Below are positions 34,255 through 55,549 of a DNA stretch of 64,000 bases, piece after piece. The position numbers and the translations under genes are program-made. Location of the stretch: NCBI RefSeq assembly GCF_913778665.1, contig NZ_CAJYVQ010000008.1, forward strand, positions 372,001-436,000, given 5' to 3'. This DNA is from an uncultured Stenotrophomonas sp. (lineage in GTDB: Bacteria; Pseudomonadota; Gammaproteobacteria; Xanthomonadales; Xanthomonadaceae). Position 1 is the first letter of the stretch; each line of letters begins with the position of its first letter. A model generated the notes under the pieces. That model had not been told where the DNA came from and made no database searches. It saw only the letters and a list, made by a program, of their open reading frames with translations.

Positions 34255-35973
34255 ATGAGCAAGCGCGTGGCCGAAATCGTGGTGGATGCCCTGCAGCAGG
34301 CTGGCGTTCGACGTTGCTACGGCATCGTCGGCGATACGCTCAACCACGTGACCGATGCGATGCATGGCAGCGATATCGCGTGGGTGCACGTACGCCACGA
34401 GGAAGTGGCCGCCTTCGCTGCCGGCGCCGATTCGCTGGTCAGTGGTGAGCTGACCGCCTGTGCCGGGTCCTGCGGGCCCGGCAGCCTGCACTTCATCAAT
34501 GGCGTGTTCGAAAGCAACCGCAACCGCGCGCCGATGGTGCTGATCGCCAGTCAGGTGGTGACCAGCGAGCTGGGCATGGAATTCCCCCAGGAAGTGGACT
34601 TCAAGGCGGTGTACGCCAGCTGTTCGGTGTTCTGCGAGCAGGTGCACAGTGCCGAGCAGGCGCGGCGTGTGGTGACCCTGGCCTGCCAGGCAGCGATCAG
34701 CCGCCGCGGCGTGGCAGTGGTGATCCTGCCGGCCGACATCAGCCAGGCCGAGGTGAAGCACGATGTGCCGTTCTCGGTGCACTACACCCAGCCCGTACTG
34801 CGCCCTTCAGACGCAGAACTGCAACGCATCACCGAACTGCTGGGGCAGGGCAAGCGCATCGGCATCTATGCCGGCGCCGGCTGCCAGGGTGCGCACGCGC
34901 AGTTGCTGGAGCTGGCACGACGCCTGCAGGCGCCGGTCGCGCACACCTCGCGCGCCAAGGATTTCGTCGAGCCGGACAACCCGTACAACATGGGCATGAC
35001 CGGTATTTTCGGCATCGAGTCCGGCTTCCACACGCTGATGGAATGCGACACGCTGTTGCTGCTCGGCGCCGACTTCGCGTGGGGCCAGTTCTATCCGGAC
35101 AAGGCGACGATCATCCAGGTCGACCGCGACGGCAGCCACCTTGGCCGTCGCCACCCGGTGAGTCTGGGCGTGGTCGGTGATATCGCACCGACGCTGGACG
35201 CGCTGCTGCCGATGCTGCCGCCGCGCGAGGACAGCACGTTCCTCGATGAGTGCATCGTGCGCCGCGACAAGGCCCTGAAGAAGCGCGAGCAGGAAGAACA
35301 GCCGGGCGAGGGTGAGCTGATCCATCCGCAGCACCTGACTGCGCTGCTGTCGAAGTACGCCGCAGACGACGCGCTGTTCACCGCCGACGGCGGCTCGCCG
35401 ATGGTGTGGGTACTGCGGCATATCCGTGTCAATGGTCGCCGCCGGACGCTGACCAGCCTGCTTCACGGCACGATGGCCAACGCGATGCCGCAGGCACTGG
35501 GCCTGCAGAAAGCGTTCCCGGGCCGGCAGGTGATCTCGCTGTCCGGCGATGGTGGCCTGGCGATGCTGCTCGGTGATCTGCTGACCGCGGTGCAGGAAAA
35601 CCTGCCGATCAAGGTGGTGGTGTTCAACAACGGCTCGCTGAACTTCGTCGAGCTGGAACAGAAGGTGGAAGGCCTGCTGGACAACTACACCGATCTGAAG
35701 AACCCGGATTTCGGCCGCCTGGCCGAAGTGATCGGCTTCCACGGCCGCACCGTGACCCGCAGTGAGGATCTGGAGGAAGCGGTGCAGGATTTCCTCGCGC
35801 AACGCGGCCCGGCGTTGCTGGACGTGCACACCAGCCGCGCAGAGCTGGTGATGCCGCCGCAGATCGAAGCCAAGCAGGTGGCCGGTACCGCGTTGTATGC
35901 CGCCAAGGCGGTGTTGAATGGCCGCTTCGACGACGTGAAGCATCTGCTGGTGGACAACTTCCTGAAGAAGTGA
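34255..35973 (+). CDS. poxB: thiamine-diphosphate enzyme, PoxB-type pyruvate:quinone dehydrogenase
   Basis: The protein has 572 residues in three domains. The N-terminal PYR domain has its catalytic Glu in VRHEEVAAFAAGA. The central domain binds FAD in true PoxB (GIYAGAGCQGAH). The C-terminal PP domain has the ThDP motif GDGGLAML followed by NNGSLNF. PoxB decarboxylates pyruvate to acetate and CO2, passing electrons to ubiquinone at the inner face of the membrane. The ATG at 34255 follows CGAGGA at eight bases; the upstream ATG at 34246 does not. The C-terminal tail is short, so membrane attachment is uncertain. An acetolactate-synthase-like relative is the alternative. Confidence 0.82.
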   Translation: MSKRVAEIVVDALQQAGVRRCYGIVGDTLNHVTDAMHGSDIAWVHVRHEEVAAFAAGADSLVSGELTACAGSCGPGSLHFINGVFESNRNRAPMVLIASQVVTSELGMEFPQEVDFKAVYASCSVFCEQVHSAEQARRVVTLACQAAISRRGVAVVILPADISQAEVKHDVPFSVHYTQPVLRPSDAELQRITELLGQGKRIGIYAGAGCQGAHAQLLELARRLQAPVAHTSRAKDFVEPDNPYNMGMTGIFGIESGFHTLMECDTLLLLGADFAWGQFYPDKATIIQVDRDGSHLGRRHPVSLGVVGDIAPTLDALLPMLPPREDSTFLDECIVRRDKALKKREQEEQPGEGELIHPQHLTALLSKYAADDALFTADGGSPMVWVLRHIRVNGRRRTLTSLLHGTMANAMPQALGLQKAFPGRQVISLSGDGGLAMLLGDLLTAVQENLPIKVVVFNNGSLNFVELEQKVEGLLDNYTDLKNPDFGRLAEVIGFHGRTVTRSEDLEEAVQDFLAQRGPALLDVHTSRAELVMPPQIEAKQVAGTALYAAKAVLNGRFDDVKHLLVDNFLKK

Positions 35974-36063
35974 GGGTTGGGGCTGGATGCTGGGCTGCGC
36001 CCTGCACCCGCAGAGGCCAAGGCAACAGCCGAAGCAACAGCAACAGCGGGCATTCCGTGGGAT

Positions 36064-36165
36064 GGCGGGGTGGGTCCGGTTGCGGGGGACGCTGCAAGTA
36101 CGTCCTTGTAAGCTCGATCGCGCCATTCATGGCGCTCACGCCCCCGCAACCGGACCCACCCCGCC
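36064..36165. repeat. 102-base inverted-repeat element, copy A
   Basis: A perfect 25-base inverted repeat (36064-36088 and 36141-36165) encloses a 52-base loop. The loop contains a small hairpin, GCGCCAT-TC-ATGGCGC. Arms begin GGCGGGGTGGGTCCGG. The same element, in opposite orientation, is at 53671-53772, and a related one is at 36408-36502. It is not a SMAG unit. It lies within a 670-base gap (35974-36643) that holds only repeats and no supported gene. Confidence 0.85.
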
Positions 36166-36193
36166 CTCGGCAATCTTCCGCTGCTGTTGGTGG

Positions 36194-36328
36194 GTGTCGA
36201 TCTTGCTCGACACGGTAGATCCACGCCGTGCGTGGATGAACGAACGAATGATCGGAATGATCTTCTGTAGAGCCGAGCCATGCTCGGCTCAGAAGCCTCG
36301 CGTATATCAGCCGAGCATGGGTTCGGCG
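36194..36328. repeat. cluster of four SMAG-type repeats
   Basis: The units are a GTGTCGATC-palindrome at 36194-36213, GTAGATCCACGCCGTGCGTGG at 36215-36237, GTAGAGCCGAGCCATGCTCGG at 36267-36290, and a facing half-unit CAGCCGAGCATGGGTTCGGCG at 36308-36328. The cluster separates inverted-repeat copies A and B. Confidence 0.8.
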
Positions 36329-36407
36329 CAACAACGAGAGCCTGCCTTTGCTTTTGATCTTTTGATTCTCTTCCGTGGCTGGCACACGCAGGGAACTGTC
36401 AGAGGCC

Positions 36408-36502
36408 GGGCGGGTGGGCGTCGCGGGGGTGTCCGCGGCATGGATGCTGCGGCCAAGCCCCGAGGATGGGTTCACGGCGTCCCCCGCGACGCCCACCCGC
36501 CC
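36408..36502. repeat. 95-base inverted-repeat element, copy B
   Basis: A perfect 22-base inverted repeat (36408-36429 and 36481-36502) encloses a 51-base loop. The arms contain GGCGTCGC where copies A and C have GTCCGGTTGC, yet they remain fully complementary. The loop shares CATGGATG and TTCACGGCGT with copy C. It ends 141 bases before the permease start. Confidence 0.8.
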
Positions 36503-36643
36503 CGGGCCAGCCCGGAAACTTGCGATTCGCGCCCAGGCACGAGGGGCCCCGCCGTTGGCTGGAACCCATCATTCCACCGTGGAATTGGCGCCCGGGCCCC
36601 GCTGGGCCTACCATCGGCGGTCCCCACCCCCACCGCCCCTTCC

Positions 36644-53511: not shown

Positions 53512-53547
53512 ATCCCCGGTCGATGCGGGTCGACCGGGGATTTTTTT
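53512..53547 (+). terminator. Rho-independent terminator of metY
   Basis: ATCCCCGGTCGA (53512-53523), TGCGGG, TCGACCGGGGAT (53530-53541) is a perfect 12-base stem, followed by a T-run. Confidence 0.9.
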
Positions 53548-53557
53548 GTTTCCGGGG

Positions 53558-53590
53558 TCAGATCCGTTTTCCTGTGGAAAACGGATCTGA
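53558..53590. repeat. perfect 15-base inverted repeat with 3-base loop
   Basis: TCAGATCCGTTTTCC, TGT, GGAAAACGGATCTGA. It is preceded by GGGG and followed by GCC. It has no GTAG lead and is not a SMAG unit. It stands just after the metY terminator in the 442-base gap (53410-53851), which carries no gene. Confidence 0.8.
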
Positions 53591-53603
53591 GCCTTGCGCC
53601 GAC

Positions 53604-53623: not shown

Positions 53624-53670
53624 CTGCCAAGGCAGAACGCCGTTCCGACAGATCGCAGGAATCTGTCGAA

Positions 53671-53772
53671 GGCGGGGTGGGTCCGGTTGCAGGGGCGTGA
53701 GCGCCATGGATGGCGCGACCGAGCCTCCATGGACGGATTCACGGCGTCCCCTGCAACCGGACCCGCCCCGCC
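53671..53772. repeat. 102-base inverted-repeat element, copy C
   Basis: The 25-base arms (53671-53695 and 53748-53772) differ by a single G:T-type mismatch and enclose a 52-base loop containing GCGCCATGGATGGCGC. Its loop is the reverse complement of copy A's loop with scattered substitutions, so the whole element is inverted relative to copy A. The right flank (to about 53830) also matches, in reverse, the left flank of copy A. Confidence 0.85.
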
Positions 53773-53851
53773 ATCCCACGGATAGTCAGCTTTTGCTTTT
53801 GCCGTTGCCTTGGCAGGTGCAGGGCTGCAAGCCCTGCCGCACCCACACCCC

Positions 53852-55549
53852 TCACACCACCGGAATGCTGTGCTGCCCCAGATTCCGGTACGGCGGCGTG
53901 GACATGATCATCTCCGCCAGCGAATAGGCCAGCTCGCGCTCGGCCATCACCGTGCCATCGGCGCCGTGTTCCAGCAGATGCTTCACTTCGGCATCGCTGT
54001 GCGCGCGTGCCAGCAGGGTCAGGTCCGGGTTGATCGCGCGCAGCTTGGCCAGCGCCTCACCGGCTTCCAGCGGCTGCGGAATCGCCAGCACCGCGATCTT
54101 GGCGCGCTCCGGATGGGCCTCGGCCAGCACCCGGTCGGCGGCGGCACTGCCGCGGATCGCCGCCAGGCCCTTGGCATGCGCCTGTTCGACATGTTCCTTG
54201 TTGTCATCGATCACCAGCACCGGCACGCCGCGATCACGCAGCACCTGCGCCAGCTCGCTGCCGACGCGGCCGTAACCGATCACGATGGCGTGGCCATGCA
54301 GGTCGCGGGACGGGCCGATGGCCTCCGGCGGCTCCGGTGCCTGCGGTTGCTGCTCCTGCTTGGCCTGCCAGCGGTCGAGCAGGCCGAACACCAGCGGGTT
54401 GAGCATGATCGACACCAGCGCACCGGCCAGCACCAGCGACTGGCCTTCCTTCGGCAGGATCTGCAGAGCCACGCCGAGGCCGGCGATGATGAAGGCGAAC
54501 TCGCCGATCTGCGCCAGGCTGGCCGAGATGGTCAGCGCGGTGCTGGTCGGGTGGCCGAATGCACGCACGATGAAGAAGGCGGCGGCCGACTTGCCGAACA
54601 TGATGATCAGCACCGTGGCCAGCACCTGCCACGGATGCTGGATGAGGATGTTGGGGTCGAACAGCATGCCGACCGACACAAAGAACAGCACCGCAAATGC
54701 GTCGCGCAGCGGCAGCGAATCGGTCGCGGCCTTGTGGCTCAATTCCGATTCGTTGAGCAGCATGCCGGCGAAGAACGCGCCCAGCGCGAACGAGACACCG
54801 AACAGCATGGCCGAGCCGAACGCTACGCCCAGCGCGATCGCCAGCACCGACAGGGTGAACAGTTCGCGCGAACCGGTACCGGCGATGCGTTCGAGGATCC
54901 ACGGGATGACCCGGCGGCCGACCACCAGCATCACCGCCACGAACAGGCCCAGCTGCACGAACGTCCAGCCGATGTCGGCCAGCACGCTGCCCAGCGAGTG
55001 CGATTCCTTGGCCGCATCGGGACCGAACACGCCGGCCATCACCGGCATCATCACCAGCGCCAGTACGCAGGCCAGGTCTTCCACGATCAGCCAGCCGACC
55101 GCGATCTTGCCGCGCATGGTTTCCAGCAGGCGGCGTTCCTCCATCGCCCGCAGCAGCACCACGGTACTGGCGGTGGCCAGCGAGAAACCGAAGATGACGC
55201 CATGGATGGCCGGCCAGCCCATCAGCGAGGCCACACCCCAGCCGAGCAGGGTGGCGACTGCGATCTGGCCGATGGCACCGGGGATGGCGATGGCCTTGAC
55301 CGCCATCAGGTCCTTCAGCGAGAAATGCAGGCCGACGCCGAACATCAGCAGCATCACACCCAGCTCGGCCAGCTGATTGGCCAGCGCCTGGTCAGCGACG
55401 AAGCCGGGGGTGAACGGGCCTACACAGATGCCAGCAACCAGGTAACCGACCAGGGGAGACAAGCGGAGCTTGTTGGCCAGCGCGCCAAAGATGAAGGCGA
55501 GCCCCAGGCCAACGGCCACGATGTTGATCAGGTCGGTGTCATGGTGCAT
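53852..55549 (-). CDS. ybaL: YbaL/KefB-type monovalent cation:proton antiporter (CPA2)
   Basis: The 565-residue inner-membrane antiporter has about 12 helices (FALANKLRLSPLVGYLVAGICVGPFTPGF near the start, GVMLLMFGVGLHFSL, FALGAFFAGMLLNESE), followed by a cytosolic RCK/TrkA-N domain from about residue 420 (HAIVIGYGRVGSELAQVL, a Rossmann dinucleotide motif). Length and domain order fit YbaL. The ATG at 55549 was chosen; the frame continues upstream into a palindromic region that is not coding. Ion specificity is unknown. Confidence 0.9.
   Translation of the reverse strand: MHHDTDLINIVAVGLGLAFIFGALANKLRLSPLVGYLVAGICVGPFTPGFVADQALANQLAELGVMLLMFGVGLHFSLKDLMAVKAIAIPGAIGQIAVATLLGWGVASLMGWPAIHGVIFGFSLATASTVVLLRAMEERRLLETMRGKIAVGWLIVEDLACVLALVMMPVMAGVFGPDAAKESHSLGSVLADIGWTFVQLGLFVAVMLVVGRRVIPWILERIAGTGSRELFTLSVLAIALGVAFGSAMLFGVSFALGAFFAGMLLNESELSHKAATDSLPLRDAFAVLFFVSVGMLFDPNILIQHPWQVLATVLIIMFGKSAAAFFIVRAFGHPTSTALTISASLAQIGEFAFIIAGLGVALQILPKEGQSLVLAGALVSIMLNPLVFGLLDRWQAKQEQQPQAPEPPEAIGPSRDLHGHAIVIGYGRVGSELAQVLRDRGVPVLVIDDNKEHVEQAHAKGLAAIRGSAAADRVLAEAHPERAKIAVLAIPQPLEAGEALAKLRAINPDLTLLARAHSDAEVKHLLEHGADGTVMAERELAYSLAEMIMSTPPYRNLGQHSIPVV

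Follow-up and report, generated by a model that had tools for sequence, protein, structure and literature searches.

Three long inverted repeats in a 64,000-nucleotide stretch of a Stenotrophomonas genome (hereafter the window) raise the question of what is being maintained at these sites. A sequence-only reading had described the three copies, A, B and C, as about 100 bases long with perfectly complementary, co-varying arms, and had left a non-autonomous mobile element, a structured RNA and a protein-binding cruciform as possible explanations for a family that it could not name.

Inverted repeats A, B and C in the window

An arm-pair scan that required 15 nt or more per arm, tolerated one mismatch and set the loop at 30–75 nt gave four matches in the window, three of which are A, B and C. 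Their folding z-scores were −10.1, −5.3 and −10.5, respectively, and 0 of 200 shuffled sequences were equally stable, so the three repeats are present where they had been reported and are not a product of chance. Copy A occupies positions 36061–36168 on the minus strand, taken here as its RNA-sense strand, and is defined by its arms, its fold and a score of 130 bits with the covariance model R1 described below. Its 28-nt arms (36061–36088 and 36141–36168) are 96% complementary with 52 nt between them; counted more narrowly, the arms span 36064–36088 and 36141–36165. Copy B, the divergent partner of A, lies on the plus strand at 36406–36504 (80.7 bits); its arms of 22–24 nt (36408–36429 and 36481–36502) are 100% complementary and enclose 51 nt. 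Copy C is a single element on the plus strand at 53668–53775 (135.2 bits), with 28-nt arms (53668–53695 and 53748–53775) that are 93% complementary and 52 nt apart. Perfect arms, as claimed for all three, are thus found in B but not in A or C, and mismatch-free copies account for 6 of 104 in the whole genome when counted over a self-aligned stretch with a mean of 28.6 pairs. Because the arms of A and C are almost alike, replacement of arm sequence can be seen within the window only as B against A and C; the co-variation that had been read from these three copies was upheld on alignments of 31 and 62 copies.

The arms and loop had been recognized correctly at the outset, but the conserved sequence runs past the arms, and two hairpins with GGA loops as well as the pairing of A with B had been missed. 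In the core of A (36101–36131, minus strand), the octamer of the first hairpin (hp1), CATGAATG at 36124–36131, has GGA changed to GAA, and that of the second (hp2), CAAGGACG at 36101–36108, is intact. The core of B (36439–36468, plus strand) has an intact hp1 octamer, CATGGATG at 36439–36446, and an hp2 octamer, CGAGGATG at 36461–36468, in which GGA is present and the first loop base is other than A. A and B therefore contain just one fully consensus hairpin each. Both are intact in the core of C (53705–53735, plus strand), with CATGGATG at 53705–53712 and CATGGACG at 53728–53735, 23 nt from start to start.

Further modules surround the three copies. Next to A is an outer tract of GCAACA-type hexamer units (36019–36047, minus strand) of a kind also found beside other copies, and a short GC hairpin, GCTGGGCTGCGCCCTGC (35989–36005), stands between the gene 3′ end at 35973 and A. 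Next to C, the hexamer tract GCTTTTGCTTTTGCCGTTGCC (53789–53809, plus strand) is accompanied by the short GC hairpin GCAGGGCTGCAAGCCCTGC (53819–53837), which lies ahead of the 3′ end of a minus-strand gene at 53852. The central part between A and B (36217–36290) contains two SMAG-type palindromes, beginning with GTAGATCCACGCC and TGTAGAGCCGAGCC, which were assigned by sequence and by Table 1 of PMC2817692. Hexamer tracts beside elements (GCAACA or GTTGMC units) vary in length, for example at loci L123 and L126, and might be prone to slippage.

A dispersed family with a common fold

When the 108 bases of C were used as a BLAST query against the 4.41 Mb genome that contains the window (G000), at least 40 near-full-length matches were found, 40 of 113 first-look candidates having been scored. 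R1 was built from an alignment of 31 copies, 30 from BLAST and B. Among the best 150 of 4076 candidates scored in G000, it gave at least 144 matches, or at least 112 after opposite-strand duplicates were removed by hand, which establishes the kinship of A, B and C as members of one family. The weakest match listed has 31 bits and at least 106 matches reach 60 bits; the 106-copy set used below is the 112 without six copies below 60 bits, and the 104-copy set drops two more. Because the number of candidates scored per genome was limited, these and all other copy numbers are lower bounds.

The 112 matches form 77 clusters, 42 single elements and 35 pairs. The pairs are arranged minus-then-plus in 34 of 35 cases, minus-minus in one and plus-minus in none, with gaps of 95–252 bp, and A–B is one of the 34 divergent pairs. 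In all 15 pairs inspected, the two partners have different arm sequences; sub-families with common arms exist within the family. By eye, 12 of these 15 pairs form a larger symmetric unit in the order short GC hairpin, hexamer tract, minus element, central part, plus element, hexamer tract and short GC hairpin, the central part carrying SMAG or GGGGTCAGATCC palindromes. Outer modules are missing on one side at L128, L131 (the A–B pair) and L133.

The predicted fold has three hairpin parts over about 110 nt, namely an outer stem and two inner hairpins with GGA loops, both of which end in C-ANGGAN-G (loop token CANGGANG). In an alignment of 62 diverse copies (A3), the arms have no sequence in common across genera, and yet 95.0% of 2597 cells hold standard pairs, compared with 63.3% after shuffling and with 40–46% in slid controls, over which A3 has a large margin even if taking the structure from A3 itself favours it. 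The covariation score of 0.753, against 0.182 for shuffled alignments, was reached by 0 of 500 shuffles. Both sides have changed in 38 of 42 pairs, a count met by one of 500 shuffles; the outer stem contributes all 27 of its pairs, helix 2 contributes 8 of 9, and the third hairpin 3 of 6. As the sequence-only reading had proposed, it is the fold and not the base sequence of the arms that is preserved.

Copies were found throughout G000, in its relatives and in other gammaproteobacteria. Of 41 genomes from the genus and order, 23 matched R1 (E ≤ 0.001; best 92 candidates per genome scored), as did 35 of 149 from the family, where 15 of 54 genera were represented (E ≤ 1e-8; best 25 candidates per genome scored). 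A second model, R2, built from A3, matched 70 of 369 Gammaproteobacteria genomes and 62 of 271 genera (E ≤ 1e-6; best 10 candidates per genome scored). Two core CANGGANG loops inside unrelated arms are present in 27 of 28 inspected R2 loci, L331 being the exception, and some R2 copies with two CANGGANG have merely 48–53% G+C. Neither C nor a core had a match in a plasmid collection; viral contigs gave none to one exact core pattern, which matches 81 of the 342 loci collected here.

Strand bias, GGA loops and a proposed link to CsrA

A DNA palindrome has no strand preference, so an excess of G-U over A-C pairs on one strand points to a transcribed RNA. We aligned the arms of each copy to each other, scoring G-U and A-C alike. 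Read on the strand with the GGA loops, the 104 copies of G000 contain 2707 Watson-Crick, 96 G-U, 34 A-C and 139 other pairs; G-U is in excess in 50 copies and A-C in 14. The same bias was seen in 48 copies of a set from other genomes (65:14), which is A3 without its first 14 rows (13 from G000 and one from G021) and includes other species of the same genus, and in 34 copies from other gammaproteobacteria (32:8), the copies of both sets having been found through structure models. It holds for elements on either chromosome strand (53:18 and 43:16). The 40 copies that came from BLAST only show a weaker bias (26:13, p = 0.053, a value that, like all p-values for wobble pairs, is optimistic because the copies are related) than the remaining 64 (70:21). 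The latter all score at least 60 bits, far above the weakest match, which makes selection by the model an improbable cause of their ratio. Transcription-associated mutation could produce the same bias and would likewise imply that this strand is transcribed.

The loops themselves are nearly fixed. In A3, CANGGANG is found in hp1 of 60 of 62 copies, in hp2 of 58 and in both of 56. The second base of the hp2 loop, which is free, is T in 37 copies, G in 12, A in 8 and C in 5, whereas the first A is unchanged in 59 of 62 and GGA is present in 61 of 62. In G000, the sense strand has two CANGGANG in 90 of 106 copies and one in the other 16, at least 196 sites across the set, and the antisense strand has one in 7 of 106. 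The two sense sites are 23 nt apart in 86 copies and 22 nt apart in 4.

Motility, biofilm and secretion come under the global regulator RsmA/CsrA, and a spacing of 23 nt suits bridging by a CsrA dimer. The GGA-loop hairpins of the element agree with the form of the CsrA SELEX consensus, which the excerpt of PMC4347634 used here gives as RUACARGGAUGU with GGA within a hairpin loop; hp2 is UACANGGAUGUA in 9 of 27 inspected R2 loci. Each half of the dimer binds one motif according to the relevant part of PMC4333381. G000 has one CsrA gene, and the CsrA family (PF02599) is present in 312 of 369 genomes, namely in 65 of the 70 with R2 matches and in 247 of the 299 without (Fisher p = 0.042). This co-occurrence lends weak support to a link with CsrA. 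In five element-bearing genomes no CsrA exceeded the cut-off even at E up to 10; four of them are 67–88% complete, but G394 is 98% complete and stands as a counterexample. According to PMC7694677, none of the sequenced Xanthomonas genomes yielded a CsrB, CsrC or RsmV/W/X/Y/Z homologue in a BLAST search.

A named RNA motif has a similar core. TwoAYGGAY (Rfam RF01731) is listed for human gut, gammaproteobacteria and Clostridiales in the consulted part of Weinberg 2010 (PMC2864571), and it is predicted to bind CsrA in that of Gardner 2014 (PMC4333381). Our Rfam scans covered the window and a number of loci. Of 18 loci scanned permissively, L182 (45.6 bits) and L323 (44.0 bits) passed the RF01731 gathering score of 43 bits, L120 (41.3 bits) and L326 (35.3 bits) fell below it, and the others were unlisted. 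Coarser scans gave 0 of 20 G000 loci at E ≤ 0.1 and 0 of 20 other loci at gathering. Nine R1 elements of G000 score 30–41 bits on RF01731, with a best score of 41.3 and none over gathering; copies A, B and C gave no match at E ≤ 1, and the window as a whole has no Rfam match at gathering. Matches to microRNA, Ysr224 and C4 in the permissive scans were below their own thresholds and were set aside as chance matches to any long hairpin. We also observed a separate TwoAYGGAY RNA in G000 (L303, G000:C1:144844-144909; 46.5 bits, over gathering) that is the best RF01731 match of this genome and is missing from the R1 list. Two AYGGAY-type terminal loops in one structure are indeed found in the element, as ANGGAN closed by C-G (in the hp1 and hp2 frequencies given above), with A or G rather than Y as the second loop base in 20 of 62 hp2 and 5 of 62 hp1 loops. 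The family is not entirely nameless, in that its core resembles a named motif; the window copies themselves fail to match it. On the modelled fold, we class the element as a variant of the TwoAYGGAY/CsrA-binding RNA, unusually dispersed, long-stemmed, abundant and often divergently paired, for which binding is predicted.

Competing explanations and relation to known systems

The family, its fold, covariation and strand bias, the near-fixed CANGGANG loops and the divergent pairing are supported by computation. One explanation is that the element is a palindrome at the DNA level, a REP-like cruciform or protein-binding DNA whose arms are matched by intrastrand template switching or gene conversion and which has no RNA function. 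The long GC-rich arms, the intergenic position, the inverted pairs and the SMAG elements nearby would all suit it, and paired changes by themselves fit maintenance of RNA and of DNA alike. A DNA-only mechanism, however, has no strand preference, whereas G-U exceeds A-C on one strand in three sets; moreover, the most conserved positions include unpaired bases of the loops, and CANGGANG is nearly restricted to one strand. We consider this explanation improbable, and the cruciform option is disfavoured by the strand bias of the wobble pairs. The bias and the two near-fixed loops make a structured RNA the best fit among the options of the sequence-only reading. Such an RNA might still act merely as a bidirectional transcription end or as an mRNA 3′-end stabilizer, a long hairpin that stops exonucleases and whose loops are incidental, and functions of this kind are hypothesised for REPs in the part of PMC3733652 available. 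Gene context, determined with a simple codon-model ORF caller for 73 of the 77 clusters (four single elements were left out for missing sequence), agrees with such a role: no cluster lies inside an ORF (0 of 73), and the outer side of the element faces a gene 3′ end in 68 cases and a 5′ end in 38 (p = 0.005), the flanking genes being convergent at 29 clusters, tandem at 33, divergent at 10 and unknown at one. A stricter version, a 3′-UTR element co-directional with the upstream gene, is unsupported, as the single elements that lie between tandem genes run with those genes in 6 cases and against them in 10, which gives no hint of their being carried on the upstream mRNA. Against a 3′-end role, no U tract directly follows the stem of A, B or C, and C has an ordinary U-tract terminator upstream (53512–53547); a barrier would need neither near-fixed GGA loops nor a fixed spacing of 22–23 nt. 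We regard this explanation as unlikely.

The third explanation is a non-autonomous mobile element (MITE or REPIN-like) spread in trans by a transposase. It accords with the high copy number, the dispersed and divergently paired copies, the sub-families with common arms, the patchy distribution and the alternating arrays at L192 and L194. At these two loci, in other genomes of the family, elements stand in rows of four and five with alternating orientation, like giant BIMEs. For the transposase class covered, RAYT (PF01797), no locus has an R1 match above 23 bits beside it (0 of 67 loci, 66 in 21 relatives and one in G000; about 1.5 kb on each side where the contig allowed), and the same count led us to reject the idea, taken from the accessible part of PMC3733652, that the element is the terminal inverted repeat (TIR) of a TIRYT transposase. 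In G000, SMAG flanks the one PF01797 gene found, and some loci of relatives adjoin SMAGs or the GGGGTCAGATCC palindrome. G000 has this single PF01797 match despite several SMAG-type palindromes. A self-complementary (G)GGGTCAGATCC palindrome occurs in the window at 53555–53593 and at L090, L092, L095 and L179; it fits the GGGGWSAS TIR motif and is found near the RAYT genes of some relatives and in the central part of several pairs. Orthologous loci retain an element of at least 60 bits in 15 of 30 cases at the A–B site and in 9 of 30 at site C, some being cut by contig ends. The sequence-only reading had named empty sites in related strains as a test. No recognisable clean empty allele was seen at either site; deletion scars and missing regions were seen instead. 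Among 12 alleles of site C inspected, four (L275, L279, L280 and L285) retain the outer modules around a raggedly deleted hairpin, which argues against a mobile element. Among 14 alleles of the A–B site inspected, L256 is without B and L255 without A, L246 has the left of A fused to the right of B, and a different arm and loop type occupies B in L244 and L250. The entire region is absent in others, for instance L259, L281, L286 and L291, which can be read neither as loss nor as never gained. At the orthologous sites, elements have thus been deleted or exchanged for another type; insertion was not seen but may have occurred. At L283, which corresponds to site C in a relative, the element is adjoined by a long tandem array of CAGCAGTTCCAA type. 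We give mobility little credence as the main explanation of the family.

Our preferred reading, to which we assign a probability of roughly 0.6, is that the element is a REP-like variant of TwoAYGGAY, present in high copy number and often in divergent pairs, which would be transcribed and bind RsmA, its copies serving either as decoys or as sites in 3′ regions. Transcription would yield the sense strand, which is the minus strand at A and the plus strand at B and C, and the transcript is predicted to fold into a three-way junction in which an outer stem P1 of about 22–30 bp, free in sequence, carries two C-ANGGAN-G hairpins of the form bound by CsrA/RsmA. With two sites 23 nt apart, one RsmA dimer could bridge them, and the long stem may keep both hairpins open and protect the RNA. 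About a hundred intergenic copies, with the outer side more often near a gene 3′ end, might titrate RsmA collectively; alternatively, they might recruit RsmA to many 3′ regions. Points that speak against this reading are the weak tie to CsrA with its five exceptions, the absence of co-direction with upstream genes, the single fully consensus hairpin in each of A and B, the weaker wobble bias of the BLAST-only copies, and the scarcity of RF01731 matches, which the window copies lack altogether. A fuller version, in which some 200 dispersed docking hairpins in one Xanthomonadaceae genome form a distributed decoy that replaces sRNAs of the CsrB/RsmZ type, divergent pairs give transcripts from either side one sense copy, and relatives of the element occur in many gammaproteobacterial lineages, is put forward tentatively and is, taken jointly, somewhat doubtful. 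If the RNA reading is true, genome-wide CsrA-type hairpins would be a direct candidate for what relieves RsmA in the Xanthomonas group, an RNA motif listed without known function occurs as a dispersed repeat family, and selection can act at the RNA level on repeats commonly regarded as DNA palindromes.

In the openly licensed literature, as far as its available text extends, we found no description of the element as a dispersed repeat, and each of the known systems resembles it in part. Like REP, SMAG and REPIN-BIME sequences, it is an intergenic palindrome with many copies in alternating orientation or inverted pairs. Unlike them, it is about 110 nt long instead of 20–40 nt, its consensus has no GTAG head, its loop is complex and it lies away from the RAYT genes examined, so the earlier view that it is not a SMAG/REP unit stands. 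S. maltophilia TIRYT genes have TIR families in close pairs, one of them self-complementary, in the portion of PMC3733652 consulted. The element shares the close pairs and the genus with these families, but as far as the published descriptions at hand set the two apart, it is GGGGTCAGATCC that fits the published GGGGWSAS, and the element is beside no examined RAYT gene. With CsrB/C, RsmX/Y/Z and RsmU of Xanthomonas it has in common GGA motifs in hairpin loops that follow the CsrA consensus; it differs from these CsrA/RsmA-sequestering sRNAs in having two sites per module, many dispersed copies and no known promoter. RsmU is described, in the accessible part of PMC7694677, as a 3′-UTR-derived sRNA whose overexpression effects remained after its GGA motifs were changed, and the two CsrA-related sRNAs of Alcanivorax are not described as repeats in the part of PMC9788540 available. 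TwoAYGGAY also has two A-N-GGA-N hairpins in one fold on an outer stem; compared with the available description of that motif, the element is distinguished by an outer stem of about 22–30 bp, about a hundred copies in G000 and its many divergent pairs.
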